A model generated the notes under the pieces. That model was not told where the DNA came from, ran no database searches, and was given only the letters and a program-made list of their open reading frames with translations. Below, in pieces: positions 10,619-49,400 of a stretch of 64,000 nucleotides of DNA; position 1 is the stretch's first letter; the number at the start of each line of letters is the position of its first letter. Both the position numbers and the translations under genes were made by a program. This stretch comes from Arctopsyche grandis (taxonomy: Eukaryota; Arthropoda; Insecta; Trichoptera; Hydropsychidae): the NCBI RefSeq assembly GCF_051622035.1, contig NC_135361.1, forward strand, positions 30,475,205-30,539,204, given 5' to 3'.

Positions 10619-12467
10619 ATGATGGAGTGCAGGCTTTGTCTTGGATCAGCTCCGGCCGCATCTTCCGTCTCCATCTTCGGCGAATCTCATCCAGAGCGTC
10701 TGGAGCAACGCATTCGAACCTGCTGTCAAATTCAGGTCGGTGCTGGTTACAGGTTACAATTATTGTGGACCCAATTGGTTAACTCTTCTCACCGCTTGAT
10801 CCTACTTTTTCCATCTGCAGGTTAAAAGAGGCGATGGGTTGCCAGACACGGTGTGTCTTTCGTGTAAGACCAGTCTGGAATTGTTGATCAGCTTTCGAAA
10901 GGCTTGTTTTCGAAACAACGTATCGTCTCAACTGAGGTTAGACGATTGCATGAAGATCAAGACTGAAGAAGTTTTATTGGAAGATCTAATATGGGACGAT
11001 GAGCCTTCCCAATCGACAATTCACCGAAAGAATAGTGAAATGTGCTTAGAGTCATTTCCCAGTGAATCTGAACTTATTTTACACAAAAGATCACATCCTG
11101 GAGAAAATCTGTTCAAATGTAACATTTGTTTGAAATCATATGTTCATAAAAAAAAACTTGTGTCACATTTGAGATCTCACACGGGGGAAAGGGCTTTCAA
11201 GTGTGAAATTTGTCTAAAATCATTTACTCGAAAATATAACCTCGAGATACATCGAAAATTGCATACTGGGATAAAACTATATAAATGTGACATTTGTTTA
11301 AAATCATATGTTCGTAAAGATGAACTTGTGTCACATTTGAGAACTCACACAGGGGAAAAGCCATACAGGTGTGAAATTTGTCTAAAATCATTTACACAAG
11401 CATCTAGCCTCGTGACACATAAAAAATTGCATACTGGGATAAAACCACACAAATGTGACATTTGTTTAAAATCATTTACTCTAAAATTTACCCTCGAGAC
11501 ACATAAAAAATTGCATACTGGGATAAAACCACACAAATGTGACATTTGTTTAAAATCATTTACTCTAAAATTTAACCTCGAGACACATAAAAAATTGCAT
11601 GCTGGGATACAAGTTCATAAATGTGACATTTGTTTAAAATCATTTATTTATAAACGTGAACTTGTGTCACATTTGAGATATCACACGGGGGAAAAGCCTT
11701 ACAAGTGTGAAACTTGTCTAAAATCATTTACTCGAAAATCTGGCCTCGATACACATAAAAAATTGCATGCTGGGATAAAACTACACAAATGTAACATTTG
11801 TTTAAAATCATATGTTCGTAAAAATGAACTTGTTAGCCATTTGAGATCCCACACAGGGGAAAAGCCATACAAGTGTGAAATTTGTCTAAAATCATTTACT
11901 CTAACATCTAGCCTCGGGACACATAAAAAATTGCATGCTGGGATAAAACCACACAAATGTGACATTTGTTTAAAATCATATGTTCGTAAAAATGAACTTG
12001 TGAGACATTTGAGATCCCACACAGGGGAAAAGCCATACAAGTGTGAAATTTGTCTAAAATCATTTACTCAAACATCTATCCTCGTGACACATAAAAAATT
12101 GCATACTGGGATAAAACCACACAAATGTGACATTTGTTTAAAATCATTTACTCTAAAATTTAACCTCGAGACACATAAAAAATTGCATACTGGGATAAAA
12201 CCACACAAATGTGACATTTGTTTAAAATCATTTACTCTAAAATTTACCCTCGAGTCACATAAAAAATTGCATGCTGGGATAAAACCACACAAATGTGACA
12301 TTTGTTTAAAATCATTTAGTTATAAAAGTAGACTTGTGTCACATTTGAGATCCCACACAGGGGAAAAGCCTTACAAGTGTGAAACTTGTCTAAAATCATT
12401 TACTCGAAAATCTGGCCTCAATACACATAAAAAAATTGCATGCAAGGATAAAACTACACAAATGTAA
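10619..12467 (+). CDS. ZAD-type C2H2 zinc-finger protein, tail broken by a frameshift
   Basis: Two exons: 10619-10735 and 10821-12467 (donor CAG|GTCGGT, acceptor CTGCAG|GTT; phase 0; about 587 residues). The N-terminus starts MMECRLCLG; CRLC in exon 1 and CLSC in exon 2 are the paired cysteines of a zinc-finger-associated domain, an insect-expanded dimerisation module. A short acidic linker with a possible degenerate finger follows. Then come fifteen intact C2H2 fingers with H-x3-H spacing, nearly all with the core CxxCLKSF/Y. Linkers alternate between HTGEKPYK and H(T/A)GIKPHK, and adjacent fingers are almost identical, pointing to recent 84 bp tandem duplication. Finger 16 loses its second zinc histidine because seven A replace the six seen in sister repeats (about 12427-12433); the frame then stops at 12467. 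It is probably a nuclear DNA-binding factor; target unknown. Either ATG of the MM pair could start it. Confidence 0.85.
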
Positions 12468-12618
12468 CATTTGTTTAAAATCATATGTTCGTAAAAATGA
12501 ACTTGTGAGACATTTGAGATCCCACACTGGGGAAACGCCTTTCAAGTGTGAAATTTGTTTAAAATCATTACTTGCAAATCTGTCCTCTGGTCACATAATA
12601 AATTGCATACTGGGATGA
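12468..12618 (+). pseudogene. Out-of-frame continuation of the zinc-finger array
   Basis: In the +1-shifted frame the array continues with one well-formed finger (HKCNICLKSYVRKNELVRHL, ending HTGE) and a last degenerate one (CEICLKSLLANLSSGH...). It ends at a stop at 12616-12618. Either this is the true C-terminus and the assembly carries a one-base homopolymer error, or the gene was recently truncated in this individual. A polyadenylation-like AATAAA lies near 12775. Confidence 0.7.
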
Positions 12619-13416: not shown

Positions 13417-13714
13417 CTTTGATCCCGGTTTGACTTGCATGAAATCTGACTACCTTATACAGGAGCGATGATGATGCCATCGTAAGACTTGTGTATTGTT
13501 GTGCAATATAGCCGGAATAGCACAAGTTGTGCTATATTCCTACGGTAATTGGATTATTCGTCACATTGCGGTGGTCACAGAGACAATTTTTGCCATGAAA
13601 ATCTCGAATACACAATATTTGGCACTCAAGTTCTCGTTAATGATGTATGATTAAAGTGACCATACGTCCCGTTTTGAACGGGACCGTCCCGTTTTTAGGT
13701 AGCCTGTCCCGTTG

Positions 13715-13806
13715 GGTTACACGACAATTGGTGCAAGTCCAAAATGTTCAACGACAAAATGTACCCGAAAATTAGTGCACTGACAAAATGTACCCGCGAC
13801 AAAATG
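13715..13806 (+). repeat. Left terminal inverted repeat of the giant foldback element
   Basis: It starts ggttacacgacaattggtgc and contains the blocks TTCAACGACAAAATGTACCC, AAAATTAGTGCACTGAC and one CGACAAAATGTACCCG-type unit before running straight into the first satellite monomer. It matches the right end in inverse orientation nearly base for base. Confidence 0.8.
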
Positions 13807-16800
13807 TTTCAAATGAATAATTTACTTTTATCGTACACATCGCGGGCGTTATTAAATTAGTATAAATGACAGGGGTTCTTAACCGTATCCAATATTTACG
13901 TATTTAAATTGAAAAAAAAAACTTTCCGAGCGTATGAACTGCAGATTACATTGCATTAGTTTATATGGCAGGGCTTCTCAACCGTCTCCAAAATTTTCTT
14001 TATTTCAAATGAATAATTTACTTTTTATCGTACACATCGCGGGCGTTATTAAATTAGTATAAATGACAGGGGTTCTTAACCGTATCCAATATTTACGTAT
14101 TTAAATTGAAAAAAAAAACTTTCCGAGCGTATGAACTGCAGATTACATTGCATTAGTTTATATGGCAGGGCTTCTCAACCGTCTCCAAAATTTTCTTTAT
14201 TTCAAATGAATAATTTACTTTTTATCGTACACATCGCGGGCGTTATTAAATTAGTATAAATGACAGGGGTTCTTAACCGTATCCAATATTTACGTATTTA
14301 AATTGAAAAAAAAAACTTTCCGAGCGTATGAACTGCAGATTACATTGCATTAGTTTATATGGCAGGGCTTCTCAACCGTCTCCAAAATTTTCTTTATTTC
14401 AAATGAATAATTTACTTTTTATCGTACACATCGCGGGCGTTATTAAATTAGTATAAATGACAGGGGTTCTTAACCGTATCCAATATTTACGTATTTAAAT
14501 TGAAAAAAAAAACTTTCCGAGCGTATGAACTGCAGATTACATTGCATTAGTTTATATGGCAGGGCTTCTCAACCGTCTCCAAAATTTTCTTTATTTCAAA
14601 TGAATAATTTACTTTTTATCGTACACATCGCGGGCGTTATTAAATTAGTATAAATGACAGGGGTTCTTAACCGTATCCAATATTTACGTATTTAAATTGA
14701 AAAAAAAAACTTTCCGAGCGTATGAACTGCAGATTACATTGCATTAGTTTATATGGCAGGGCTTCTCAACCGTCTCCAAAATTTTCTTTATTTCAAATGA
14801 ATAATTTACTTTTTATCGTACACATCGCGGGCGTTATTAAATTAGTATAAATGACAGGGGTTCTTAACCGTATCCAATATTTACGTATTTAAATTGAAAA
14901 AAAAAACTTTCCGAGCGTATGAACTGCAGATTACATTGCATTAGTTTATATGGCAGGGCTTCTCAACCGTCTCCAAAATTTTCTTTATTTCAAATGAATA
15001 ATTTACTTTTTATCGTACACATCGCGGGCGTTATTAAATTAGTATAAATGACAGGGGTTCTTAACCGTATCCAATATTTACGTATTTAAATTGAAAAAAA
15101 AAACTTTCCGAGCGTATGAACTGCAGATTACATTGCATTAGTTTATATGGCAGGGCTTCTCAACCGTCTCCAAAATTTTCTTTATTTCAAATGAATAATT
15201 TACTTTTTATCGTACACATCGCGGGCGTTATTAAATTAGTATAAATGACAGGGGTTCTTAACCGTATCCAATATTTACGTATTTAAATTGAAAAAAAAAA
15301 CTTTCCGAGCGTATGAACTGCAGATTACATTGCATTAGTTTATATGGCAGGGCTTCTCAACCGTCTCCAAAATTTTCTTTATTTCAAATGAATAATTTAC
15401 TTTTTATCGTACACATCGCGGGCGTTATTAAATTAGTATAAATGACAGGGGTTCTTAACCGTATCCAATATTTACGTATTTAAATTGAAAAAAAAAACTT
15501 TCCGAGCGTATGAACTGCAGATTACATTGCATTAGTTTATATGGCAGGGCTTCTCAACCGTCTCCAAAATTTTCTTTATTTCAAATGAATAATTTACTTT
15601 TTATCGTACACATCGCGGGCGTTATTAAATTAGTATAAATGACAGGGGTTCTTAACCGTATCCAATATTTACGTATTTAAATTGAAAAAAAAAACTTTCC
15701 GAGCGTATGAACTGCAGATTACATTGCATTAGTTTATATGGCAGGGCTTCTCAACCGTCTCCAAAATTTTCTTTATTTCAAATGAATAATTTACTTTTTA
15801 TCGTACACATCGCGGGCGTTATTAAATTAGTATAAATGACAGGGGTTCTTAACCGTATCCAATATTTACGTATTTAAATTGAAAAAAAAAACTTTCCGAG
15901 CGTATGAACTGCAGATTACATTGCATTAGTTTATATGGCAGGGCTTCTCAACCGTCTCCAAAATTTTCTTTATTTCAAATGAATAATTTACTTTTTATCG
16001 TACACATCGCGGGCGTTATTAAATTAGTATAAATGACAGGGGTTCTAAACCGTATCCAATATTTACGTATTTAAATTGAAAAAAAAACTTTCCGAGCGTA
16101 TGAACTGCAGATTACATTGCATTAGTTTATATGGCAGGGCTTCTCAACCGTCTCCAAAATTTTCTTTATTTCAAATGAATAATTTACTTTTTATCGTACA
16201 CATCGCGGGCGTTATTAAATTAGTATAAATGACAGGGGTTCTTAACCGTATCCAATATTTACGTATTTAAATTGAAAAAAAAAACTTTCCGAGCGTATGA
16301 ACTGCAGATTACATTGCATTAGTTTATATGGCAGGGCTTCTCAACCGTCTCCAAAATTTTCTTTATTTCAAATGAATAATTTACTTTTTATCGTACACAT
16401 CGCGGGCGTTATTAAATTAGTATAAATGACAGGGGTTCTTAACCGTATCCAATATTTACGTATTTAAATTGAAAAAAAAAACTTTCCGAGCGTATGAACT
16501 GCAGATTACATTGCATTAGTTTATATGGCAGGGCTTCTCAACCGTCTCCAAAATTTTCTTTATTTCAAATGAATAATTTACTTTTTATCGTACACATCGC
16601 GGGCGTTATTAAATTAGTATAAATGACAGGGGTTCTTAACCGTATCCAATATTTACGTATTTAAATTGAAAAAAAAAACTTTCCGAGCGTATGAACTGCA
16701 GATTACATTGCATTAGTTTATATGGCAGGGCTTCTCAACCGTCTCCAAAATTTTCTTTATTTCAAATGAATAATTTACTTTTTATCGTACACATCGCGGG

Positions 16801-19800
16801 CGTTATTAAATTAGTATAAATGACAGGGGTTCTTAACCGTATCCAATATTTACGTATTTAAATTGAAAAAAAAAACTTTCCGAGCGTATGAACTGCAGAT
16901 TACATTGCATTAGTTTATATGGCAGGGCTTCTCAACCGTCTCCAAAATTTTCTTTATTTCAAATGAATAATTTACTTTTTATCGTACACATCGCGGGCGT
17001 TATTAAATTAGTATAAATGACAGGGGTTCTTAACCGTATCCAATATTTACGTATTTAAATTGAAAAAAAAAACTTTCCGAGCGTATGAACTGCAGATTAC
17101 ATTGCATTAGTTTATATGGCAGGGCTTCTCAACCGTCTCCAAAATTTTCTTTATTTCAAATGAATAATTTACTTTTTATCGTACACATCGCGGGCGTTAT
17201 TAAATTAGTATAAATGACAGGGGTTCTTAACCGTATCCAATATTTACGTATTTAAATTGAAAAAAAAAACTTTCCGAGCGTATGAACTGCAGATTACATT
17301 GCATTAGTTTATATGGCAGGGCTTCTCAACCGTCTCCAAAATTTTCTTTATTTCAAATGAATAATTTACTTTTTATCGTACACATCGCGGGCGTTATTAA
17401 ATTAGTATAAATGACAGGGGTTCTTAACCGTATCCAATATTTACGTATTTAAATTGAAAAAAAAAACTTTCCGAGCGTATGAACTGCAGATTACATTGCA
17501 TTAGTTTATATGGCAGGGCTTCTCAACCGTCTCCAAAATTTTCTTTATTTCAAATGAATAATTTACTTTTTATCGTACACATCGCGGGCGTTATTAAATT
17601 AGTATAAATGACAGGGGTTCTTAATATCCAATAAGGTTTACGTAATTTAAATTGAAAAAAAAAACTTTCCGAGCGTATGAACTGCAGATTACATTGCATT
17701 AGTTTATATGGCAGGGCTTCTCAACCGTCTCCAAAATTTTCTTTATTTCAAATGAATAATTTACTTTTTATCGTACACATCGCGGGCGTTATTAAATTAG
17801 TATAAATGACAGGGGTTCTTAACCGTATCCAATATTTACGTATTTAAATTGAAAAAAAAAACTTTCCGAGCGTATGAACTGCAGATTACATTGCATTAGT
17901 TTATATGGCAGGGCTTCTCAACCGTCTCCAAAATTTTCTTTATTTCAAATGAATAATTTACTTTTTATCGTACACATCGCGGGCGTTATTAAATTAGTAT
18001 AAATGACAGGGGTTCTTAACCGTATCCAATATTTACGTATTTAAATTGAAAAAAAAAACTTTCCGAGCGTATGAACTGCAGATTACATTGCATTAGTTTA
18101 TATGGCAGGGCTTCTCAACCGTCTCCAAAATTTTCTTTATTTCAAATGAATAATTTACTTTTTATCGTACACATCGCGGGCGTTATTAAATTAGTATAAA
18201 TGACAGGGGTTCTTAACCGTATCCAATATTTACGTATTTAAATTGAAAAAAAAAACTTTCCGAGCGTATGAACTGCAGATTACATTGCATTAGTTTATAT
18301 GGCAGGGCTTCTCAACCGTCTCCAAAATTTTCTTTATTTCAAATGAATAATTTACTTTTTATCGTACACATCGCGGGCGTTATTAAATTAGTATAAATGA
18401 CAGGGGTTCTTAACCGTATCCAATATTTACGTATTTAAATTGAAAAAAAAAACTTTCCGAGCGTATGAACTGCAGATTACATTGCATTAGTTTATATGGC
18501 AGGGCTTCTCAACCGTCTCCAAAATTTTCTTTATTTCAAATGAATAATTTACTTTTTATCGTACACATCGCGGGCGTTATTAAATTAGTATAAATGACAG
18601 GGGTTCTTAACCGTATCCAATATTTACGTATTTAAATTGAAAAAAAAAACTTTCCGAGCGTATGAACTGCAGATTACATTGCATTAGTTTATATGGCAGG
18701 GCTTCTCAACCGTCTCCAAAATTTTCTTTATTTCAAATGAATAATTTACTTTTTATCGTACACATCGCGGGCGTTATTAAATTAGTATAAATGACAGGGG
18801 TTCTTAACCGTATCCAATATTTACGTATTTAAATTGAAAAAAAAAACTTTCCGAGCGTATGAACTGCAGATTACATTGCATTAGTTTATATGGCAGGGCT
18901 TCTCAACCGTCTCCAAAATTTTCTTTATTTCAAATGAATAATTTACTTTTTATCGTACACATCGCGGGCGTTATTAAATTAGTATAAATGACAGGGGTTC
19001 TTAACCGTATCCAATATTTACGTATTTAAATTGAAAAAAAAAACTTTCCGAGCGTATGAACTGCAGATTACATTGCATTAGTTTATATGGCAGGGCTTCT
19101 CAACCGTCTCCAAAATTTTCTTTATTTCAAATGAATAATTTACTTTTTATCGTACACATCGCGGGCGTTATTAAATTAGTATAAATGACAGGGGTTCTTA
19201 ACCGTATCCAATATTTACGTATTTAAATTGAAAAAAAAAACTTTCCGAGCGTATGAACTGCAGATTACATTGCATTAGTTTATATGGCAGGGCTTCTCAA
19301 CCGTCTCCAAAATTTTCTTTATTTCAAATGAATAATTTACTTTTTATCGTACACATCGCGGGCGTTATTAAATTAGTATAAATGACAGGGGTTCTTAACC
19401 GTATCCAATATTTACGTATTTAAATTGAAAAAAAAAACTTTCCGAGCGTATGAACTGCAGATTACATTGCATTAGTTTATATGGCAGGGCTTCTCAACCG
19501 TCTCCAAAATTTTCTTTATTTCAAATGAATAATTTACTTTTTATCGTACACATCGCGGGCGTTATTAAATTAGTATAAATGACAGGGGTTCTTAACCGTA
19601 TCCAATATTTACGTATTTAAATTGAAAAAAAAAACTTTCCGAGCGTATGAACTGCAGATTACATTGCATTAGTTTATATGGCAGGGCTTCTCAACCGTCT
19701 CCAAAATTTTCTTTATTTCAAATGAATAATTTACTTTTTATCGTACACATCGCGGGCGTTATTAAATTAGTATAAATGACAGGGGTTCTTAACCGTATCC

Positions 19801-22800
19801 AATATTTACGTATTTAAATTGAAAAAAAAAACTTTCCGAGCGTATGAACTGCAGATTACATTGCATTAGTTTATATGGCAGGGCTTCTCAACCGTCTCCA
19901 AAATTTTCTTTATTTCAAATGAATAATTTACTTTTTATCGTACACATCGCGGGCGTTATTAAATTAGTATAAATGACAGGGGTTCTTAACCGTATCCAAT
20001 ATTTACGTATTTAAATTGAAAAAAAAAACTTTCCGAGCGTATGAACTGCAGATTACATTGCATTAGTTTATATGGCAGGGCTTCTCAACCGTCTCCAAAA
20101 TTTTCTTTATTTCAAATGAATAATTTACTTTTTATCGTACACATCGCGGGCGTTATTAAATTAGTATAAATGACAGGGGTTCTTAACCGTATCCAATATT
20201 TACGTATTTAAATTGAAAAAAAAAACTTTCCGAGCGTATGAACTGCAGATTACATTGCATTAGTTTATATGGCAGGGCTTCTCAACCGTCTCCAAAATTT
20301 TCTTTATTTCAAATGAATAATTTACTTTTTATCGTACACATCGCGGGCGTTATTAAATTAGTATAAATGACAGGGGTTCTTAACCGTATCCAATATTTAC
20401 GTATTTAAATTGAAAAAAAAAACTTTCCGAGCGTATGAACTGCAGATTACATTGCATTAGTTTATATGGCAGGGCTTCTCAACCGTCTCCAAAATTTTCT
20501 TTATTTCAAATGAATAATTTACTTTTTATCGTACACATCGCGGGCGTTATTAAATTAGTATAAATGACAGGGGTTCTTAACCGTATCCAATATTTACGTA
20601 TTTAAATTGAAAAAAAAAACTTTCCGAGCGTATGAACTGCAGATTACATTGCATTAGTTTATATGGCAGGGCTTCTCAACCGTCTCCAAAATTTTCTTTA
20701 TTTCAAATGAATAATTTACTTTTTATCGTACACATCGCGGGCGTTATTAAATTAGTATAAATGACAGGGGTTCTTAACCGTATCCAATATTTACGTATTT
20801 AAATTGAAAAAAAAAACTTTCCGAGCGTATGAACTGCAGATTACATTGCATTAGTTTATATGGCAGGGCTTCTCAACCGTCTCCAAAATTTTCTTTATTT
20901 CAAATGAATAATTTACTTTTTATCGTACACATCGCGGGCGTTATTAAATTAGTATAAATGACAGGGGTTCTTAACCGTATCCAATATTTACGTATTTAAA
21001 TTGAAAAAAAAAACTTTCCGAGCGTATGAACTGCAGATTACATTGCATTAGTTTATATGGCAGGGCTTCTCAACCGTCTCCAAAATTTTCTTTATTTCAA
21101 ATGAATAATTTACTTTTTATCGTACACATCGCGGGCGTTATTAAATTAGTATAAATGACAGGGGTTCTTAACCGTATCCAATATTTACGTATTTAAATTG
21201 AAAAAAAAAACTTTCCGAGCGTATGAACTGCAGATTACATTGCATTAGTTTATATGGCAGGGCTTCTCAACCGTCTCCAAAATTTTCTTTATTTCAAATG
21301 AATAATTTACTTTTTATCGTACACATCGCGGGCGTTATTAAATTAGTATAAATGACAGGGGTTCTTAACCGTATCCAATATTTACGTATTTAAATTGAAA
21401 AAAAAAACTTTCCGAGCGTATGAACTGCAGATTACATTGCATTAGTTTATATGGCAGGGCTTCTCAACCGTCTCCAAAATTTTCTTTATTTCAAATGAAT
21501 AATTTACTTTTTATCGTACACATCGCGGGCGTTATTAAATTAGTATAAATGACAGGGGTTCTTAACCGTATCCAATATTTACGTATTTAAATTGAAAAAA
21601 AAAACTTTCCGAGCGTATGAACTGCAGATTACATTGCATTAGTTTATATGGCAGGGCTTCTCAACCGTCTCCAAAATTTTCTTTATTTCAAATGAATAAT
21701 TTACTTTTTATCGTACACATCGCGGGCGTTATTAAATTAGTATAAATGACAGGGGTTCTTAACCGTATCCAATATTTACGTATTTAAATTGAAAAAAAAA
21801 ACTTTCCGAGCGTATGAACTGCAGATTACATTGCATTAGTTTATATGGCAGGGCTTCTCAACCGTCTCCAAAATTTTCTTTATTTCAAATGAATAATTTA
21901 CTTTTTATCGTACACATCGCGGGCGTTATTAAATTAGTATAAATGACAGGGGTTCTTAACCGTATCCAATATTTACGTATTTAAATTGAAAAAAAAAACT
22001 TTCCGAGCGTATGAACTGCAGATTACATTGCATTAGTTTATATGGCAGGGCTTCTCAACCGTCTCCAAAATTTTCTTTATTTCAAATGAATAATTTACTT
22101 TTTATCGTACACATCGCGGGCGTTATTAAATTAGTATAAATGACAGGGGTTCTTAACCGTATCCAATATTTACGTATTTAAATTGAAAAAAAAAACTTTC
22201 CGAGCGTATGAACTGCAGATTACATTGCATTAGTTTATATGGCAGGGCTTCTCAACCGTCTCCAAAATTTTCTTTATTTCAAATGAATAATTTACTTTTT
22301 ATCGTACACATCGCGGGCGTTATTAAATTAGTATAAATGACAGGGGTTCTTAACCGTATCCAATATTTACGTATTTAAATTGAAAAAAAAAACTTTCCGA
22401 GCGTATGAACTGCAGATTACATTGCATTAGTTTATATGGCAGGGCTTCTCAACCGTCTCCAAAATTTTCTTTATTTCAAATGAATAATTTACTTTTTATC
22501 GTACACATCGCGGGCGTTATTAAATTAGTATAAATGACAGGGGTTCTTAACCGTATCCAATATTTACGTATTTAAATTGAAAAAAAAAACTTTCCGAGCG
22601 TATGAACTGCAGATTACATTGCATTAGTTTATATGGCAGGGCTTCTCAACCGTCTCCAAAATTTTCTTTATTTCAAATGAATAATTTACTTTTTATCGTA
22701 CACATCGCGGGCGTTATTAAATTAGTATAAATGACAGGGGTTCTTAACCGTATCCAATATTTACGTATTTAAATTGAAAAAAAAAACTTTCCGAGCGTAT

Positions 22801-25800
22801 GAACTGCAGATTACATTGCATTAGTTTATATGGCAGGGCTTCTCAACCGTCTCCAAAATTTTCTTTATTTCAAATGAATAATTTACTTTTTATCGTACAC
22901 ATCGCGGGCGTTATTAAATTAGTATAAATGACAGGGGTTCTTAACCGTATCCAATATTTACGTATTTAAATTGAAAAAAAAAACTTTCCGAGCGTATGAA
23001 CTGCAGATTACATTGCATTAGTTTATATGGCAGGGCTTCTCAACCGTCTCCAAAATTTTCTTTATTTCAAATGAATAATTTACTTTTTATCGTACACATC
23101 GCGGGCGTTATTAAATTAGTATAAATGACAGGGGTTCTTAACCGTATCCAATATTTACGTATTTAAATTGAAAAAAAAAACTTTCCGAGCGTATGAACTG
23201 CAGATTACATTGCATTAGTTTATATGGCAGGGCTTCTCAACCGTCTCCAAAATTTTCTTTATTTCAAATGAATAATTTACTTTTTATCGTACACATCGCG
23301 GGCGTTATTAAATTAGTATAAATGACAGGGGTTCTTAACCGTATCCAATATTTACGTATTTAAATTGAAAAAAAAAACTTTCCGAGCGTATGAACTGCAG
23401 ATTACATTGCATTAGTTTATATGGCAGGGCTTCTCAACCGTCTCCAAAATTTTCTTTATTTCAAATGAATAATTTACTTTTTATCGTACACATCGCGGGC
23501 GTTATTAAATTAGTATAAATGACAGGGGTTCTTAACCGTATCCAATATTTACGTATTTAAATTGAAAAAAAAAACTTTCCGAGCGTATGAACTGCAGATT
23601 ACATTGCATTAGTTTATATGGCAGGGCTTCTCAACCGTCTCCAAAATTTTCTTTATTTCAAATGAATAATTTACTTTTTATCGTACACATCGCGGGCGTT
23701 ATTAAATTAGTATAAATGACAGGGGTTCTTAACCGTATCCAATATTTACGTATTTAAATTGAAAAAAAAAACTTTCCGAGCGTATGAACTGCAGATTACA
23801 TTGCATTAGTTTATATGGCAGGGCTTCTCAACCGTCTCCAAAATTTTCTTTATTTCAAATGAATAATTTACTTTTTATCGTACACATCGCGGGCGTTATT
23901 AAATTAGTATAAATGACAGGGGTTCTTAACCGTATCCAATATTTACGTATTTAAATTGAAAAAAAAAACTTTCCGAGCGTATGAACTGCAGATTACATTG
24001 CATTAGTTTATATGGCAGGGCTTCTCAACCGTCTCCAAAATTTTCTTTATTTCAAATGAATAATTTACTTTTTATCGTACACATCGCGGGCGTTATTAAA
24101 TTAGTATAAATGACAGGGGTTCTTAACCGTATCCAATATTTACGTATTTAAATTGAAAAAAAAAACTTTCCGAGCGTATGAACTGCAGATTACATTGCAT
24201 TAGTTTATATGGCAGGGCTTCTCAACCGTCTCCAAAATTTTCTTTATTTCAAATGAATAATTTACTTTTTATCGTACACATCGCGGGCGTTATTAAATTA
24301 GTATAAATGACAGGGGTTCTTAACCGTATCCAATATTTACGTATTTAAATTGAAAAAAAAAACTTTCCGAGCGTATGAACTGCAGATTACATTGCATTAG
24401 TTTATATGGCAGGGCTTCTCAACCGTCTCCAAAATTTTCTTTATTTCAAATGAATAATTTACTTTTTATCGTACACATCGCGGGCGTTATTAAATTAGTA
24501 TAAATGACAGGGGTTCTTAACCGTATCCAATATTTACGTATTTAAATTGAAAAAAAAAACTTTCCGAGCGTATGAACTGCAGATTACATTGCATTAGTTT
24601 ATATGGCAGGGCTTCTCAACCGTCTCCAAAATTTTCTTTATTTCAAATGAATAATTTACTTTTTATCGTACACATCGCGGGCGTTATTAAATTAGTATAA
24701 ATGACAGGGGTTCTTAACCGTATCCAATATTTACGTATTTAAATTGAAAAAAAAAACTTTCCGAGCGTATGAACTGCAGATTACATTGCATTAGTTTATA
24801 TGGCAGGGCTTCTCAACCGTCTCCAAAATTTTCTTTATTTCAAATGAATAATTTACTTTTTATCGTACACATCGCGGGCGTTATTAAATTAGTATAAATG
24901 ACAGGGGTTCTTAACCGTATCCAATATTTACGTATTTAAATTGAAAAAAAAAACTTTCCGAGCGTATGAACTGCAGATTACATTGCATTAGTTTATATGG
25001 CAGGGCTTCTCAACCGTCTCCAAAATTTTCTTTATTTCAAATGAATAATTTACTTTTTATCGTACACATCGCGGGCGTTATTAAATTAGTATAAATGACA
25101 GGGGTTCTTAACCGTATCCAATATTTACGTATTTAAATTGAAAAAAAAAACTTTCCGAGCGTATGAACTGCAGATTACATTGCATTAGTTTATATGGCAG
25201 GGCTTCTCAACCGTCTCCAAAATTTTCTTTATTTCAAATGAATAATTTACTTTTTATCGTACACATCGCGGGCGTTATTAAATTAGTATAAATGACAGGG
25301 GTTCTTAACCGTATCCAATATTTACGTATTTAAATTGAAAAAAAAAACTTTCCGAGCGTATGAACTGCAGATTACATTGCATTAGTTTATATGGCAGGGC
25401 TTCTCAACCGTCTCCAAAATTTTCTTTATTTCAAATGAATAATTTACTTTTTATCGTACACATCGCGGGCGTTATTAAATTAGTATAAATGACAGGGGTT
25501 CTTAACCGTATCCAATATTTACGTATTTAAATTGAAAAAAAAAACTTTCCGAGCGTATGAACTGCAGATTACATTGCATTAGTTTATATGGCAGGGCTTC
25601 TCAACCGTCTCCAAAATTTTCTTTATTTCAAATGAATAATTTACTTTTTATCGTACACATCGCGGGCGTTATTAAATTAGTATAAATGACAGGGGTTCTT
25701 AACCGTATCCAATATTTACGTATTTAAATTGAAAAAAAAAACTTTCCGAGCGTATGAACTGCAGATTACATTGCATTAGTTTATATGGCAGGGCTTCTCA

Positions 25801-28800
25801 ACCGTCTCCAAAATTTTCTTTATTTCAAATGAATAATTTACTTTTTATCGTACACATCGCGGGCGTTATTAAATTAGTATAAATGACAGGGGTTCTTAAC
25901 CGTATCCAATATTTACGTATTTAAATTGAAAAAAAAAACTTTCCGAGCGTATGAACTGCAGATTACATTGCATTAGTTTATATGGCAGGGCTTCTCAACC
26001 GTCTCCAAAATTTTCTTTATTTCAAATGAATAATTTACTTTTTATCGTACACATCGCGGGCGTTATTAAATTAGTATAAATGACAGGGGTTCTTAACCGT
26101 ATCCAATATTTACGTATTTAAATTGAAAAAAAAAACTTTCCGAGCGTATGAACTGCAGATTACATTGCATTAGTTTATATGGCAGGGCTTCTCAACCGTC
26201 TCCAAAATTTTCTTTATTTCAAATGAATAATTTACTTTTTATCGTACACATCGCGGGCGTTATTAAATTAGTATAAATGACAGGGGTTCTTAACCGTATC
26301 CAATATTTACGTATTTAAATTGAAAAAAAAAACTTTCCGAGCGTATGAACTGCAGATTACATTGCATTAGTTTATATGGCAGGGCTTCTCAACCGTCTCC
26401 AAAATTTTCTTTATTTCAAATGAATAATTTACTTTTTATCGTACACATCGCGGGCGTTATTAAATTAGTATAAATGACAGGGGTTCTTAACCGTATCCAA
26501 TATTTACGTATTTAAATTGAAAAAAAAAACTTTCCGAGCGTATGAACTGCAGATTACATTGCATTAGTTTATATGGCAGGGCTTCTCAACCGTCTCCAAA
26601 ATTTTCTTTATTTCAAATGAATAATTTACTTTTTATCGTACACATCGCGGGCGTTATTAAATTAGTATAAATGACAGGGGTTCTTAACCGTATCCAATAT
26701 TTACGTATTTAAATTGAAAAAAAAAACTTTCCGAGCGTATGAACTGCAGATTACATTGCATTAGTTTATATGGCAGGGCTTCTCAACCGTCTCCAAAATT
26801 TTCTTTATTTCAAATGAATAATTTACTTTTTATCGTACACATCGCGGGCGTTATTAAATTAGTATAAATGACAGGGGTTCTTAACCGTATCCAATATTTA
26901 CGTATTTAAATTGAAAAAAAAAACTTTCCGAGCGTATGAACTCCAGATTACATTGCATTAGTTTATATGGCAGGGCTTCTCAACCGTCTCCAAAATTTTC
27001 TTTATTTCAAATGAATAATTTACTTTTTATCGTACACATCGCGGGCGTTATTAAATTAGTATAAATGACAGGGGTTCTCAACCGTATCCAATATTTACGT
27101 ATTTAAATTGAAAAAAAAAACTTTCCGAGCGTATGAACTGCAGATTACATTGCATTAGTTTATATGGCAGGGCTTCTCAACCGTCTCCAAAATTTTCTTT
27201 ATTTCAAATGAATAATTTACTTTTTATCGTACACATCGCGGGCGTTATTAAATTAGTATAAATGACAGGGGTTCTTAACCGTATCCAATATTTACGTATT
27301 TAAATTGAAAAAAAAAACTTTCCGAGCGTATGAACTGCAGATTACATTGCATTAGTTTATATGGCAGGGCTTCTCAACCGTCTCCAAAATTTTCTTTATT
27401 TCAAATGAATAATTTACTTTTTATCGTACACATCGCGGGCGTTATTAAATTAGTATAAATGACAGGGGTTCTTAACCGTATCCAATATTTACGTATTTAA
27501 ATTGAAAAAAAAAACTTTCCGAGCGTATGAACTGCAGATTACATTGCATTAGTTTATATGGCAGGGCTTCTCAACCGTCTCCAAAATTTTCTTTATTTCA
27601 AATGAATAATTTACTTTTTATCGTACACATCGCGGGCGTTATTAAATTAGTATAAATGACAGGGGTTCTTAACCGTATCCAATATTTACGTATTTAAATT
27701 GAAAAAAAAAACTTTCCGAGCGTATGAACTGCAGATTACATTGCATTAGTTTATATGGCAGGGCTTCTCAACCGTCTCCAAAATTTTCTTTATTTCAAAT
27801 GAATAATTTACTTTTTATCGTACACATCGCGGGCGTTATTAAATTAGTATAAATGACAGGGGTTCTTAACCGTATCCAATATTTACGTATTTAAATTGAA
27901 AAAAAAAACTTTCCGAGCGTATGAACTCCAGATTACATTGCATTAGTTTATATGGCAGGGCTTCTCAACCGTCTCCAAAATTTTCTTTATTTCAAATGAA
28001 TAATTTACTTTTTATCGTACACATCGCGGGCGTTATTAAATTAGTATAAATGACAGGGGTTCTCAACCGTATCCAATATTTACGTATTTAAATTGAAAAA
28101 AAAAACTTTCCGAGCGTATGAACTGCAGATTACATTGCATTAGTTTATATGGCAGGGCTTCTCAACCGTCTCCAAAATTTTCTTTATTTCAAATGAATAA
28201 TTTACTTTTTATCGTACACATCGCGGGCGTTATTAAATTAGTATAAATGACAGGGGTTCTTAACCGTATCCAATATTTACGTATTTAAATTGAAAAAAAA
28301 AACTTTCCGAGCGTATGAACTGCAGATTACATTGCATTAGTTTATATGGCAGGGCTTCTCAACCGTCTCCAAAATTTTCTTTATTTCAAATGAATAATTT
28401 ACTTTTTATCGTACACATCGCGGGCGTTATTAAATTAGTATAAATGACAGGGGTTCTTAACCGTATCCAATATTTACGTATTTAAATTGAAAAAAAAAAC
28501 TTTCCGAGCGTATGAACTGCAGATTACATTGCATTAGTTTATATGGCAGGGCTTCTCAACCGTCTCCAAAATTTTCTTTATTTCAAATGAATAATTTACT
28601 TTTTATCGTACACATCGCGGGCGTTATTAAATTAGTATAAATGACAGGGGTTCTTAACCGTATCCAATATTTACGTATTTAAATTGAAAAAAAAAACTTT
28701 CCGAGCGTATGAACTGCAGATTACATTGCATTAGTTTATATGGCAGGGCTTCTCAACCGTCTCCAAAATTTTCTTTATTTCAAATGAATAATTTACTTTT

Positions 28801-30336
28801 TATCGTACACATCGCGGGCGTTATTAAATTAGTATAAATGACAGGGGTTCTTAACCGTATCCAATATTTACGTATTTAAATTGAAAAAAAAAACTTTCCG
28901 AGCGTATGAACTGCAGATTACATTGCATTAGTTTATATGGCAGGGCTTCTCAACCGTCTCCAAAATTTTCTTTATTTCAAATGAATAATTTACTTTTTAT
29001 CGTACACATCGCGGGCGTTATTAAATTAGTATAAATGACAGGGGTTCTTAACCGTATCCAATATTTACGTATTTAAATTGAAAAAAAAAACTTTCCGAGC
29101 GTATGAACTCCAGATTACATTGCATTAGTTTATATGGCAGGGCTTCTCAACCGTCTCCAAAATTTTCTTTATTTCAAATGAATAATTTACTTTTTATCGT
29201 ACACATCGCGGGCGTTATTAAATTAGTATAAATGACAGGGGTTCTCAACCGTATCCAATATTTACGTATTTAAATTGAAAAAAAAAACTTTCCGAGCGTA
29301 TGAACTGCAGATTACATTGCATTAGTTTATATGGCAGGGCTTCTCAACCGTCTCCAAAATTTTCTTTATTTCAAATGAATAATTTACTTTTTATCGTTCA
29401 CATCGCGGGCGTTATTAAATTAGTATAAATGACAGGGGTTCTTAACCGTATCCAATATTTACGTATTTAAATTGAAAAAAAAAACTTTCCGAGCGTATGA
29501 ACTCCAGATTACATTGCATTAGTTTATATGGCAGGGCTTCTCAACCGTCTCCAAAATTTTCTTTATTTCAAATGAATAATTTACTTTTTATCGTACACAT
29601 CGCGGGCGTTATTAAATTAGTATAAATGACAGGGGTTCTTAACCGTATCCAATATTTACGTATTTAAATTGAAAAAAAAAACTTTCCGAGCGTATGAACT
29701 CCAGATTACATTGCATTAGTTTATATGGCAGGGCTTCTCAACCGTCTCCAAAATTTTCTTTATTTCAAATGAATAATTTACTTTTTATCGTACACATCGC
29801 GGGCGTTATTAAATTAGTATAAATGACAGGGGTTCTCAACCGTATCCAATATTTACGTATTTAAATTGAAAAAAAAAACTTTCCGAGCGTATGAACTGCA
29901 GATTACATTGCATTAGTTTATATGGCAGGGCTTCTCAACCGTCTCCAAAATTTTCTTTATTTCAAATGAATAATTTACTTTTTATCGTTCACATCGCGGG
30001 CGTTATTAAATTAGTATAAATGACAGGGGTTCTTAACCGTATCCAATATTTACGTATTTAAATTGAAAAAAAAAACTTTCCGAGCGTATGAACTCCAGAT
30101 TACATTGCATTAGTTTATATGGCAGGGCTTCTCAACCGTCTCCAAAATTTTCTTTATTTCAAATGAATAATTTACTTTTTATCGTACACATCGCGGGCGT
30201 TATTAAATTAGTATAAATGACAGGGGTTCTCAACCGTATCCAATATTTACGTATTTAAATTGAAAAAAAAAACTTTCCGAGCGTATGAACTCCAGATTAC
30301 ATTGCATTAGTTTATATGGCAGGGCTTCTCAACCGT
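13807..30336 (+). repeat. Satellite array, 197 bp unit, about 84 head-to-tail copies
   Basis: The unit boundary tttcaaatgaataattt recurs at 13807, 14003, 14200, 14397 and onward every 197 bp (the first step is 196 because one T is missing) to 30336. Copies in the body look identical apart from rare variants, such as one near 16046 (ttctaaacc, shorter A run) and one near 17622 (small rearrangement). Each unit is an ancient dimer: gcagggcttctcaaccgtct and gacaggggttcttaaccgta begin the two halves, about 98 bp apart, and both halves end in ATTAGT(A/T)TA. There is no open reading frame. It is bounded by the terminal repeat of the foldback element, so it is an expanded arm and not independent satellite DNA. 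Copy number depends on assembly quality. Confidence 0.97.
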
Positions 30337-33334
30337 AATATAAAATCTTATAGTGAAAATAAATAAATAAAAGCCAAAATTACAAATCTTTTCTTCGTAT
30401 GAAATAAGTTGTATTCAGTTGAAAACAAAACAAAAATCATTTAAACATAATATGAGCATACAAAATAGATAAAGAAAAAAGATCATCATTTGACATGTAT
30501 TTTTAAAATCATTTTTAAATTTATTACTTAATTTTGTAATAATATTTATTTTAATAAATAAACAATATTCAATTAAAATAATACATCATTAATTGTAAGA
30601 TTAAAAGTGATCTGCTCTCAAATAATGGAATCATCATAGTTCGAACTGTTGAAATGCACATGTCATTAAATTTAAAACATTAAAACACAAAATTTATCAA
30701 TTTTCAGATTAAAACAATAATTGTTAAATTAAAAATTTAAAATACCTAACATCAGTGACAAATTTAGTTATAATATAATTGCTTATCAATAGCTACCGCT
30801 GCATAAAAAATATTGATGTCATTTAAAAAATTTGAGTATATTATGACTTAATTTATACATTCTTAAATAATAAGAAATAAATAAGCAAAAAGTTGTGCAT
30901 TTGATGGAATATCGATAATAAGAGGAAGCTTTTATAAAAAAAAGATACAAAAAATGTACTAAAAGGAAATAAAAATATTGTATATAATATTAAAAAATCC
31001 ATAATTAGTAAGATTAAAAAATGGTATGACAGTATTTAAATAATGTAGATACATACATACATATGTACATTAAAAGGAATTTAATATTTTTCATATTAAA
31101 TAAGTTTAGTTTAGTTTTAAAATACAAGGATTTAAAATTAATAACTAAATATAATATACATAAGTATGTGACTAGATATATAAACTAGAACCCTGTTCGC
31201 CCTTGACTTGACTGCTGCGAGAAAAATATCCTGTGTACGCACCTGAAAATGAATGTTATATATTATTTTATATACAAAATTTTAACGAAATAATATTTTA
31301 GAATAAAAACTAACGAGTGTTAGAACGAGATTCTGCTCACAATATTTGGAATACAAAATTTTATGTGAAATTTTAGTCAAAATATTTTTTAATTGTACTC
31401 GAAAAACAATGTTTATATCAATCAAAGTGCCAGGGTGGCGATTTGATTTAAAAGTTATATTATTAAAATTTCTAGTCATAACAATAAAACAATAACAACA
31501 AAATATTTCTTAACAATAACAATAAAACTTGACTCTTTGTTGTTTTCGAGAAAGTTACAACCAACAGCCGCAATATTTCCGGGTAAGTTTAAGAAATAAA
31601 TACTCATTTGAAACGACATATGCCATTCATAAATAAACAGACAAAGCTGTTTTTTGCGTAAAGGGCTGTAGTGCACACAATATTGACTGTGACTAATTAC
31701 TACTTTTTATGTACGTACGTATCTTAGGGTTGCCATAATTGTCGGACCACCGAAGGGGACTTCCCCCCCCCAAAAAAAAAACACTCATAGCTTTCATAGC
31801 TTTATACACTCGAAATTCATAGCTTTGTTATAAAAAATTGTGCAATCTTTTAAAACAATGCATCTGTACCAAATCTAAAATCAAACAATATAGATTAATA
31901 GGCGATTAAATTTAATAAAACCAAATAGAACCTTACCTTAACATTTTAATTCATACGTTCTTCTCTCGCCTTTACTCTTCTTTGAATTGGGCGACTTCAT
32001 GTTTTCGTTTTTTGGAGCAGCTCTTTTTCCCCTTTTATATAATTATATAGTTCAATGCACGACATTTTATAATACATACACTTTTTTATAACACGCTTTT
32101 CACTGTGTCAATATAATGCGAATTGCGCTCATCTGTTCAGTGAGCTTTATGTAATTAATGAGAACACACGTTCAACATAGGCATTTTGCGGTGGGATGGT
32201 GAACAAGTATTGTTAACTTGATAACCTTATTAGAACTTTATAATACCAGAGAAATTATAAATTTATTACATAGAAATATGTATATTTTTCTATAATAAAT
32301 GTGATCGAGCTTATCAACTGTGAATAGCTAAAAATTATTATTCTAATGCTACAAACCGAAGTTGAAGAGGACATTGAAGAGATTTCGAACCCACCATTTG
32401 CCTATTGTCCTAGGGTTTTACGCAAAGAAAAAAATGCATTCAATAGCCTCTAACATGAGGGTAGTAAAATTTTATAACCCATTTGTCTTTTTACATATTT
32501 TCGTCCATTTGTGTAGACAATTCATCTGTCAATCATAGAACTAATTTCAAAATATATTATTGTTTTGCCATCTCTATTCAACGCGCGTGATTTTTTTTAC
32601 ATTTACATTTTAATTGCATTTTACATCAATCGTGTGTCTTTTACATGTCAAAATGAAATTTTGTATGCAACTCTTACGCATAATAGTTAGTTGTAAATGA
32701 TGCAATATTAATGTGAAACATAAAGGAGGTATGTAAAAATAATTTTAGCTGGGGATTAAGGAACCTGTTGCCCAAAAAAAAAAGGTTGACTATTGTAAAT
32801 TTCTAATGTCTGCCTTTTTTACATACCTCCTTTTTTCTCCAATACAATGTCCGATTCATACATTTGTTTTTTGTTAAACACTAAGTAAAATCTCTCCATC
32901 ATAAATCCTAATAGTCGTAATTCGAGACTTGATTGTAAAATAATACATTAAATTTATCTAAATTAATATTTGATATTCTTGCCTTATAATTGTATAATGA
33001 AATATTAAGTTTAAAAAAAACTTTCATTTTACATATAGCTTGCGAATGTACACTAGAAGACTTATTTGCAGAAGAAATAAAATAATTGCATTTTTAAACA
33101 AAATTTTGGAAAAAACTTATGTGAATTTGATTTAGAGACGCCGTAAAGGTCACATTCAATGTTAAAACTCGAAGTACACGTGACCGCTGGCTGGGAACTG
33201 TTTTATCAAAATAAAACGTGGCGATCAACGTTTATTTATTTATATATTATCTTAGCTATCAAGCTAATTTTAAAATTACTTAACTCTAAAATTTATAATT
33301 ATCTTATATGTACTGTCCCTCACAGAGGTCTTCG
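30337..33334. other. AT-rich centre of the giant foldback element
   Basis: About 3 kb of A/T-rich sequence between the satellite arm and the short opposite arm. I see no credible coding region, RNA gene or transposase motif, only short spurious frames. Small features include the inverse matches aaaggaggtatgtaa (near 32724) and ttacatacctcctt (near 32820), which resemble the end of a MITE family seen at 39330-39640, and a C-run near 31764. Confidence 0.5.
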
Positions 33335-33779
33335 GTGTTAAACTAATTCAATGACATACGCTTAAAAACTAAATTATTCATTTGAAATAAAGAAAATTTT
33401 GGAGACGGTTAAGAAGCCCTGCCATATAAACTAATGCAATGTAATCTGCAGTTCATACGCTCGGAAAGTTTTTTTTTTCAATTTAAATACGTAAATATTG
33501 GATACGGTTGAGAACCCCTGACATTTATACTAATTCAATGACATCTTAAAATGATATTCAATGAGTCACAATGACATTCGCTTAAAATGTAATTGTTCAA
33601 TTTAAATAAGTATATGTTGGTACGGTTGAGAACACCTTTAATTTATAATAATTTAATAACATCCGCGATCTATACGATAAAAAGTACCATATACATCGAT
33701 AAATATAATACAATAAAAAGTTACTTTTGCCATTAAAATAGGATAATTTAGGATTTTTGAACATTTTGAACATTTTTGA
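33335..33779 (-). repeat. Inverted, diverged satellite monomers of the right arm
   Basis: From 33371 the sequence is the reverse complement of the 197 bp unit (ttggagacggttaagaagcc, then gcaatgtaatctgcagttca, cgtaaatattggatacggtt). It continues into more degenerate half-units (ggtacggttgagaacacctt near 33617). Roughly two copies are present, against about 84 in the left arm, and they are much more diverged from each other. Confidence 0.85.
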
Positions 33780-33920
33780 ACATTTTGTCGCGGGTACATT
33801 TTGTCGCGGGTACATTTTGTCGCGGGTACATTTTGTCGCGGGTACATTTTGTCAGTGCACTAATTTTCGGGTACATTTTGTCGTTGAACATTTTGGCCTT
33901 GCACCAATTGTCGCGTCCCC
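33780..33920 (-). repeat. Right terminal inverted repeat with a 16 bp tandem repeat
   Basis: It contains four successive copies of GCGGGTACATTTTGTC (33788-33853), then gtgcactaattttcgggtac, attttgtcgttgaacatttt and the end gcaccaattgtcgcgtcccc. The left end has the same order with fewer 16 bp units, so the tandem repeat has varied in number between the arms. Confidence 0.85.
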
Positions 33921-34019
33921 GTCCCGTTGTCCCCAAGCACAGCTTCAGGACGTTGAAATGTCCCGTTTTCAAAAAGAGAGTATATTTATTGAATTATTAT
34001 ATATGTATATATCGTAAAA

Positions 34020-34183: not shown

Positions 34184-34565
34184 AAGCAAACCCAGTAATA
34201 CTTAAGAAAATTTGTTCATTAGAAAAATATAAAACAACATAATTTTTTTATATTCATATTATTCATTCCTGTTCTTTTTATTAATAAATAAAAACTATGA
34301 AAGAATACACGTTTTCTTGAATACACATATGTACTATTACGTAAAAATGGGTAGATGTCCCGTTTTGAGGACAAAAATAAATGACCACATTATGTATGAT
34401 GGCATAGATATATAATACACATAAATCCGCCCTCACGCTTTATACTGGTCTCCCTTTTGGCGCATGCAAAATACATGGCGCATGCACAGTTTCTCTCAGT
34501 AGGTAGGTAGGTACCGCTGCGTCGTAGGGAAAAAAACCTTTTTTTTCCCAACTTCCCCGCTAGTT

Positions 34566-46400: not shown

Positions 46401-49400
46401 TATTCGAACACGTATATTTTTCAGCATCAAGGCGTACGACATCAAGTGCGTGGCCAAAGGTCCCGTGTTCCAAATACCGATCACGATGGTCCAGCCGCAG
46501 CCACTGAGCGTGGATAGCTCGGGCGGACCCCATCTGTCGGTGCTCTCGTACAAGTTCACGCCAGGAACGATTCAGCGCCATTTCGTGCTCGTGCCGGAGC
46601 ACGCGACGTGGGCCGTCCTCAAGTTGAGCTCGCCGGAGAAACGCGGTAGATTCATGATCCACTGCGTGCAGCTAATCCCCCGCATGAGTTGCAAAAGTTG
46701 TGAATTTCAAAAAGTCGTACCCGTCAATCCCACATCGGACGTTGTCCTACCATTCCAAGTCAAGGTACATTGCGAGTCTCCTCGTTTGACAGATACTAAC
46801 TGGCGCTGGCACGGTGACGTTCAGGGGGCCCACGAACGGAGTGATCTACACGATTTATTGATCGTAGAGATCTCCGTTACGATACTCCGTGTCGTAGCTA
46901 GCAATTTCAGCACGTCAAATTGAAAGATAATTCGACCAACTTTGGTTGGGGAATTTGTTTCAAACAAAAAGCTGTTACATTGCCACAAGTCTACTTGCGA
47001 TCAATTATCTAACTATGCATATTTCATTTCAGTGGTCTTTGCAGGGGGCTAACTCCAAATGTCGATTCCTATTTATTTTTTACTTATTTATACTTATTTT
47101 TTTTAAATAAAATATTTATCTTGATGGGTTTTGACACCATGGCCAAAAATATGGACAAATACAAGTGGAAATCATAATCAGACAATAGTAACAATAATGG
47201 GTAGGGATGAGTCAATTTCTGAGGAACCGTTTCGACAGTCAAATCAGATTAATTGGCAACCTCTGATAGAAAACGATCGACTTGGATGTCAAAATTGTCC
47301 AAATCGGATCAGCAATACCACAGAAATTCTTTTAATTATACATCGTATGGTTTTAATCAATCAAGTTCTAATCTGGAGTTCGAACCTAGGACCTGTAAGT
47401 CTACAGCAGCACAGGCTAGTCACTGATCTATACGGGGACGCGACAATTTGTTCAACGACACAATGTACCCGACAATTGGTTCACTGCCAAAATGTACATA
47501 CGACCTAATCTTCACGCGACAATTGGTTCATTACCAAAATGTTTACGCGACAAAATGTCCACGAAAATAACATTCACGCGACAAAATGTTCAAAAGTCCT
47601 CAACCGTATCGAAAATTTTCGTATTTTAATGGAAAAAGTAACTTTTTATTATATTACATATATATATTGCGGATTTCATTGAATTAATTTAAATATCAGG
47701 GGTTCTCAACCGTATCCAATATTTTTTTATTTAAATTGGAAAAAATACTTTTTAAGCGTATTCATTTTATCATTTTCTATGCAATTTAATTCGCATCGCA
47801 CATTATATTAAACACTAGTCCACGCTGCTGGTTTTGTTTGGAACATCTTAACTGACTTATAGGAATCGCGTATTCCCCCCCCCCCCCTATTGCAAACAGC
47901 CATGAAGTTTAATATAATTGTATAGATAAAGGTCTATTCATACTGGCACATCACAGAACGGCAACTTCACGTAAACAGCAGTATGAAAAGTATTTGGTGG
48001 CGTACTTGTAACAGCGTAGGTGACAAAATCTATTCATGTTATACAGCAGTACATGTCACCATAAGCCGATTTTTCCTTGCACTCAACCAAAACTTGTATG
48101 AACGTATAGTGTGAATAGAAGCAGCCTTTTCTGTGCACTGTTGTGCCTTGCATAGTATGAATAGACCTTAAATCGCTCCGTCTGTGGGCACCATTAGAAA
48201 GGCTTGGTTTTAGATTTAACTGTGTGATTGTTTAAGTCCATTAGTTCATTTATTTGGTAATGGCGGGTTTAAAGCATTCGGTAGATAGATAGATGATCCA
48301 AAACTTCAGCGTATGTGTAATTACGCCATTTTGAATTTGAATCAACTGTTTGTTTGAGTCTGACGTAACGTACGTTTTCTATGTTAGGCCTGGTATTGGA
48401 TATGAATTGTCATTTCATTGAATTATAGATTTCTTCATCACACTCCATTTAAGCTTCATCATATTATTTGATCCTCGTCTATAGATTGTATGTAGTACAT
48501 ATGTATATCCAGAAGAATCATGTAAAATCATCGTTTTCAGGGTGGATACATTCTCGAAGTGGCCATCGCCAAGTATTGGGCAGGCATCGAAACGATGTTG
48601 TTGAACTACAGTATCGAATTCCACGGCATCCGGCCCGACACCAACTCTGTGGTGATCCACGGAGCCGAAGGTCTTCACTGTGTCCGATTGCGCATGTTGA
48701 GACGCGCCGACTGTTTGCCGCAGGTCGCGTTGAAATACACCACGCAAACCATACGGTGAGTAACATATGTATATTCCCACGAGGGTGGGAAAGAGGTGGT
48801 GGAGCGAATCTCCCCCAACGGGAAAGAATCAGTCGGTGCCACGTTTTCGATTGATATGATTAATTCAATTGTAATTGCTTTGTTGCGTTCAGGCCGACCG
48901 AGTCCAAAGTGGGGCCATTGACTGACAGAGACGTGATTCCTCCGAGTCGACAGATATATGAAATGATCAACACGTATAACTTCTGCGTTGTTAAGGCGAC
49001 CGAGGTTTGCAAAAAATTGTCCATCAGCATTGTATATATTGTTGATGTTTTCGATTCGTTTTGTGATGACTCTTTGTTTTAGATTACGCCTAATATACCG
49101 ATATTGAGCGATACGCTGTACGAATCGGAGTTTGAATCACAATTATGGATGCTCTTCGATTCCAACAAACAGTATATAACGTCAGGAGATGCTTATCCCT
49201 CTAAGGTAATATTATTTCGATTAAAATCTTTGTATATACATATGTATCTTTGTATATACTCAATGAATCACTGCTGTTTTTCCTTTTCACCTTTTGTACG
49301 TTTAAATTTTTTTTATTAAGTTAAACTTTAAATGTAAACATGATAAATCGACCTCAAACAACCAACTAATTGATTTCATTATATTACATACATAATACAT

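Follow-up and report, generated by a model that had tools for sequence, protein, structure and literature searches.

Drosophila Foldback (FB) elements possess inverted arms of tandem repeats and produce 9-bp duplications. The expansion of arrays inside transposable elements is, according to a 2025 review, a known route to satellites (PMC12628747), and the direct precedent for foldback arms that seed satellites is Tetris/TIR-220 of Drosophila virilis. This element is described as a foldback transposon with ~220-bp tandem units in its arms, duplications of 8-9 bp, unit arrays of up to 66 copies and an allelic pair of three and four units, and its arms were proposed to have seeded a satellite (PMC4079207). 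Repeat-built ends have also been reported together with MULE transposases. Muta1 of Aedes aegypti encodes a 504-aa FLYWCH MULE transposase, has 8-9 bp duplications and ends in which 12-bp subterminal repeats accompany a terminal motif, and has been called a type 2 Foldback element (PMC5225508). Tm1 of Meloidogyne has a Phantom-like MULE transposase, 9-bp duplications and composite ends, in which the outer 7-bp motifs are unequal and short tandem repeats vary in number (PMC3169594). The Phantom group, in which ichnovirus sequences have been placed, is characterised by 8-10 bp duplications and by transposases with either no finger, a FLYWCH finger or a SWIM finger (PMC6446971). A literature search, mostly without full texts, returned no earlier account of the family described below.

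We examined a 64,000-nucleotide stretch of the genome of the caddisfly Arctopsyche grandis (the window; C7:30475205-30539204 of the 475.7 Mb assembly), and found that window positions 13715-33920 are one transposon insertion with 9-bp target site duplications, inside a hAT copy. The duplications, GTCCCGTTG, lie exactly at 13706-13714 and 33921-33929 (both plus strand), and neither strand of the window contains this 9-mer at any other place. The left terminal repeat (A end; 13715-13806, plus strand, 92 bp) begins with the 7-mer GGTTACA, followed by CGACAATTGGTGCAAG and CGACAAAATGTACCCG-type repeats, and the right terminal repeat (B end; 33769-33920, minus strand, 152 bp) contains 16-bp tandem repeats and has, read inward, the unequal outer 7-mer GGGGACG. 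Next to the A end is the A arm (13807-30336, plus strand), in which Tandem Repeats Finder reports 83.9 copies of a 197-bp unit with 99% matches, as well as a 98-bp period, and in which cutting at a fixed anchor yields 84 units, of which 70 are identical letter for letter, a long homogeneous tandem array of satellite type. Each unit consists of two related halves, alike at 68 of 102 aligned positions (compared against a shuffle control that was not phase-optimised). The 3.0 kb internal region (30337-33373, plus strand) is a non-coding deletion form. The B arm (33374-33539, minus strand) amounts to about one unit, comprising 0.84 of the 197-bp unit in inverse orientation at ~97% identity to the array units, and is followed by a B-side subterminal block of ~230 bp (33540-33768, minus strand) with a diverged half unit at 33593-33686.

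An earlier reading of this DNA made from the letters alone (the sequence-only reading) had recognised the identical 9-bp flanks and the approximately 84 copies of a 197-bp unit, both of which agree with our coordinates and counts. Its inverted ends apply to the motif CGACAATTGGTGCAAG, which begins directly inside the unequal 7-mers, and not to the outermost 7 bp, which differ. Its few diverged inverse copies at the right end are correct in orientation, and consist of a single well-preserved partial unit plus a diverged half. Another tandem repeat in the window is due to an 84/168-bp coding repeat of a C2H2 zinc-finger gene at 10800-12616.

The interrupted hAT copy spans 13644-34400, with 8-bp flanks TGTATGAT at 13644-13651 and 34393-34400, and its right part gave a weak match to the hAT dimerisation domain (E 0.005, below the Pfam cut-off). 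When the flanks were joined with one duplication and searched for, at least 50 matches spanning the junction were obtained in hAT copies (40 of 308 candidates scored); none of the matches listed is an empty allele identical over the full length. Five hAT paralogs were aligned, of which L035, L036 and L037 have an empty site, GGTAGCCTGTCCCGTTGTCCCC, with a single GTCCCGTTG; L034 was left out of the count, and in L038 7 bases are missing at the insertion spot. These empty sites are paralogous, not allelic, and bear out the proposed insertion into a hAT copy.

The window element is a member of a young family dispersed in A. grandis, and the idea of a unique structure was rejected on account of this dispersal over the genome. 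Allowing up to two mismatches, the assembly contains the left terminal 32-mer 307 times (0 for the reversed control), and searches with the 197-bp unit and the internal region gave at least 189 (39 of 398 candidates scored) and at least 64 matches (40 of 2614 candidates scored), respectively; both counts are lower bounds, and the unit matches listed leave out the window's own array. Many of these matches are 98-100% identical and are spread over many chromosomes. A total of 28 loci were read, picked mostly as the best internal-region matches, a sample that leans to window-like copies; 27 are complete with both ends, and L046, with one end only, was left out. All 27 complete copies have one GGTTACA end and one GGGGACG end, together with inverted arms of a variable number of tandem units, in support of the foldback-type transposon that the sequence-only reading had envisaged. 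A chance arrangement is ruled out by the recurrence of ends and inverted unit arms in these copies. Perfect 9-bp duplications, within the 8-10 bp range of Mutator elements, flank 20 of the 27 copies, equivalent to 19 of 26 sites because two of the 20 copies represent one site on two contigs. Imperfect duplications were found at L040, L047 and L048 (displaced by one base or 8 bp in length) and at L009 (7 of 9 positions). No 9-bp duplication was found at three complete copies, L031+26 (C11:25823793-25829832), L041 and L044, which are possibly products of exchange between copies. The copies without a perfect duplication were sorted into these classes by eye. Different flanks were observed at the two ends of L031+26, as would be expected from exchange between copies or from a flanking deletion. 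The mean pairwise core difference was 0.46% among 25 copies, a set without L040, L041 and L048 (short core) and L049 and L050 (flanks only). Five further copies, at C8:10.24, C8:15.24, C4:21.95, C13:26.06 and C5:32.19 Mb, have an A-end-to-core distance of 842-1058 bp, determined by hand from terminal-motif and internal-region matches.

Individual copies show additional rearrangements. A 10.4 kb copy at C7:9057452-9067817 (L020, L030, L003, L005) keeps its transposase frame open and is flanked by a perfect duplication; with this duplication intact, its core is inverted relative to its arms, as recombination between the inverted arms would produce. The core of another copy (L028:4034-6074) holds a 2.0 kb GC-rich insert of repeated GGGCTTCGCCCC- and GGGCTGCGCCCC-type units, which was rejected as coding sequence because of its repeat composition. 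Also present in the window, at 47434-47766 (plus strand), is the old relic of a GGGGACG-type end from a related element; it includes half-unit sequence and is 76-82% identical to B-end pieces in the longer matches. It sits between exons of a tripeptidyl peptidase II gene, with TPPII domains on both sides, and the window yielded no partner end.

The longer-cored copies contain a 494-aa reading frame encoding FLYWCH (PF04500, E 7.8e-10, residues 13-73) and MULE (PF10551, E 1.9e-14) domains, the latter scoring above cut-off in two sister copies; the window copy has no transposase gene. The 494-aa frame is open in C2:30333896-30341179 and in the C7:9057452-9067817 and C11:25823793-25829832 copies, measures 487 aa in C3:36005295-36014558, is broken in C2:31964544-31971744 (369 aa) and measures 169 aa in L025. 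Residues D203, D272, C293, H296, E371 and E412 are invariant or at least 90% conserved in 31 aligned transposases, comprising the acidic residues and CxxH motif of Mutator transposases, with E371 and E412 both candidates for the catalytic E. A protein search identified 91 relatives (7998 candidates scored), the best being 63-64% identical. The relatives include a further A. grandis protein, and an ichnovirus ORF that matches at 33% identity (E 1.7e-51). A phage collection searched with the transposase gave no match. A predicted cytochrome P450 6a14 of A. grandis (P0062, contig C1) is 94% identical to the transposase over 17% of the latter's length, and this public gene model therefore seems to include part of a transposon. 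Since sister copies encode a FLYWCH plus MULE transposase, we would class the family as a Phantom/Muta-like Mutator (MULE) with foldback ends, an assignment by domains and end descriptions. Drosophila FB was rejected as the kind of element because of this transposase in the coding copies.

Judged by core coverage, the deletion form of the window copy is common to L009, L010, L011, L012 and L028, and a second deletion form is common to L013, L016, L017, L019, L014+15 and L021+22. Deleted forms have therefore multiplied, which would be explained most simply by transposition, and the window copy was probably moved in trans by the FLYWCH plus MULE transposase of other copies.

Measured end to end in the 27 copies, 51 of the 54 arms contain 1.3-12.8 units and the remaining three contain 83.9, 30.5 and 29.3. 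The A arm (GGTTACA side) ranges from 1.5 to 83.9 units (median 4.5) and the B arm from 1.3 to 29.3 units (median 4.3; both medians by hand). The outliers are the A arm of the window copy, the A arm of C5:3221223-3232320 (30.5 units) and the B arm of C1:6001750-6013310 (29.3 units, broken by an insertion), and all three copies have perfect duplications. A long arm is thus not unique to the window, whose 84 units form the longest array among the loci read. One insertion is present on two contigs, C162:122160-127539 (L027) and C2:30941617-30947555 (L042), where its flanks agree at 100% over 961 and 1445 bp; its A arms both have 8.5 units and its B arms 2.8 versus 5.8. The two versions are probably haplotypes; possible alternatives are an assembly error and a very recent duplication. 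The flank of this insertion (GTGGCGGCTCGCTTATAC...GGTTGCCTTCCTGCGAGTGGGG) is also found by eye near 34720 in the window, and the insertion therefore lies within a dispersed repeat.

Unit types in the window array indicate how its length may have arisen. The first 66 units on the terminal side contain no substitution (63 are identical and three have a 1-bp length change), and the inner 18 comprise mixed types in repeated blocks. The common window unit, or founder haplotype, carries T and G at positions 73 and 134 (T/G). Among 196 full-length units from the other 27 loci (of 222; 26 not 197 bp long were left out), 148 are C/G, 46 are C/C, two are T/C and none is T/G. The exact 71-base T/G pattern has 71 matches in the assembly, all 71 in the window array; T/G units with other changes within these 71 bases would escape an exact search. 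The two T/C units open the A arms of L012 and L028, a C/G unit coming next in each, and the same T/C-C/G pair (types 7, 1) persists at the inner end of the window array. Of the 25 copies compared, L012 is closest to the window copy (1 of 1774 core positions different); it is sited elsewhere and has an A arm of 3.5 units holding types 7 and 1. The T/G founder looks like the product expected from exchange between neighbouring T/C and C/G units, and could alternatively stem from a point mutation. At an insect mutation rate of 2.9e-9 per base and generation, the 66 substitution-free units place the burst at less than ~80,000 generations, presuming one event without later homogenisation.

Recent growth of the window A arm is well supported, and growth after the window copy split from its relatives is favoured because the founder haplotype is found only here and the nearest relative is short-armed; such growth would most simply have occurred in place. 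The strong expansion of one arm that the sequence-only reading had proposed is supported by the 70 identical units out of 84, the 3.5 units of L012 and the restriction of the founder to this array.

A further case is provided by the C5 copy, in which the outer block of the 30.5-unit A arm consists of 11 dimers of types 3 and 2. Its nearest relative, L016 (1 of 1904 positions different), has an arm of 3.5 units made up of types 3, 2 and a last unit, and the two copies can be read as a second before-and-after pair in the family, an independent case. The polarity of growth was compared as the number of distinct types in the outer and inner halves of the six arms with at least eight units. Uniformity on the outside was seen in the C5 A arm (2 outer, 6 inner) and, by substitutions, in the window arm (4 and 4, with outer differences only in length). 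The C7_9.06 arm is reversed (4 outer, 1 inner), and the remaining three arms have no clear trend (4/4, 2/2 and 2/3). Terminal-side growth as a rule was rejected given the reversed arm and the three trendless ones. We tentatively raise, as a rather doubtful generalisation, that the arms might act as satellite nurseries with transposition as the driving force: the transposase would cut at the terminus, and gap repair out of register would then add units from the terminal side. If true, this would join the substitution-free outer blocks of the window and 30-unit copies, the shared deletion forms, and the independent growth in copies one mutation from short-armed relatives.

The best explanation of the whole, to which we assign a probability of roughly 0.73, is that the window element is a non-autonomous, deleted Phantom/Muta-like copy whose A arm grew after the split from its relatives, most simply in place. 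After the window copy had separated from L012, its A arm would have lengthened from ~3.5 to 84 units as tandem units exchanged or were copied out of register. A hybrid-looking unit derived from two neighbouring ancestral units would have become the founder and been multiplied, chiefly in a single recent burst on the terminal side, most simply in place once the element had entered the hAT copy. The arm may instead have been long already when it landed in the hAT copy, or have grown during transposition, its donor being lost or outside the assembly. The intact duplication and ends, as in normal transposition, would suit such a landing, and the deletion forms common to several copies show that altered copies do transpose. 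We nevertheless consider it improbable in view of the restriction of the founder haplotype to the window array, the short arm of L012 and the absence of any other arm near 84 units among the copies read.

The figure of 84 units is an assembled length, and assemblies err in uniform arrays. A shorter array could have been inflated, or reads from several loci merged, given that long reads perhaps cannot be placed uniquely among 70 identical units and that the two arm lengths of the C162/C2 insertion could also reflect assembly error. However, the inner 18 units follow an ordered, non-random block pattern, and merging with other loci is unlikely because the founder haplotype is absent there, so that an array length due to assembly alone seems quite improbable. 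Least probable is an independent satellite captured by, or inserted into, the transposon. The unit is of satellite-like size with two related halves, as such an origin could predict, but this explanation was rejected because units occur in inverse orientation in both arms of all 27 complete copies. The old relic at 47434-47766 already carries half-unit sequence, the arrays of all complete copies lie between the element ends, and neither a free-standing 197-bp array nor a chromosome-wide satellite was encountered in the 28 loci read.

Compared by description, Drosophila FB shares with the window family its inverted tandem-repeat arms and 9-bp duplications. Muta1 is alike in its FLYWCH MULE transposase and repeat-built ends and differs in being a 3.2 kb element with 145-bp ends, for which PMC5225508, as far as its description extends, gives no units of the 197-bp class and no large array. 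Tm1, likened here by description, has similarly unequal 7-bp motifs outside the inverted repeat, but with other motif letters and repeats of ~14 bp in 1-9 units, and its description in PMC3169594 includes neither long-unit arms nor a kilobase array. Closest is Tetris, again as described in PMC4079207, which resembles the window family in its foldback structure, long tandem arm units, variable unit number and satellite seeding. Unlike the window family, Tetris appears to be non-autonomous, that account giving no transposase for it, and its large arrays are found mostly in repeat-only contigs and beta-heterochromatin. The window array, in contrast, lies inside an intact element, between genes, and has coding sisters and a short-armed nearest relative. 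The central idea of the sequence-only reading, the start of a satellite from a transposon arm, stands, its novelty lowered by Tetris. What is unusual relative to Tetris is an intact, traceable case of such a start inside a transposon. Satellite starts are mostly inferred from old, scrambled remains, whereas much of the start is preserved in the window element, the record including intact ends, empty paralogs, coding partners, a short-armed relative, a founder matched only here and a second case. With the start so well preserved, the mode and speed of array growth could therefore be measurable in living caddisfly populations.
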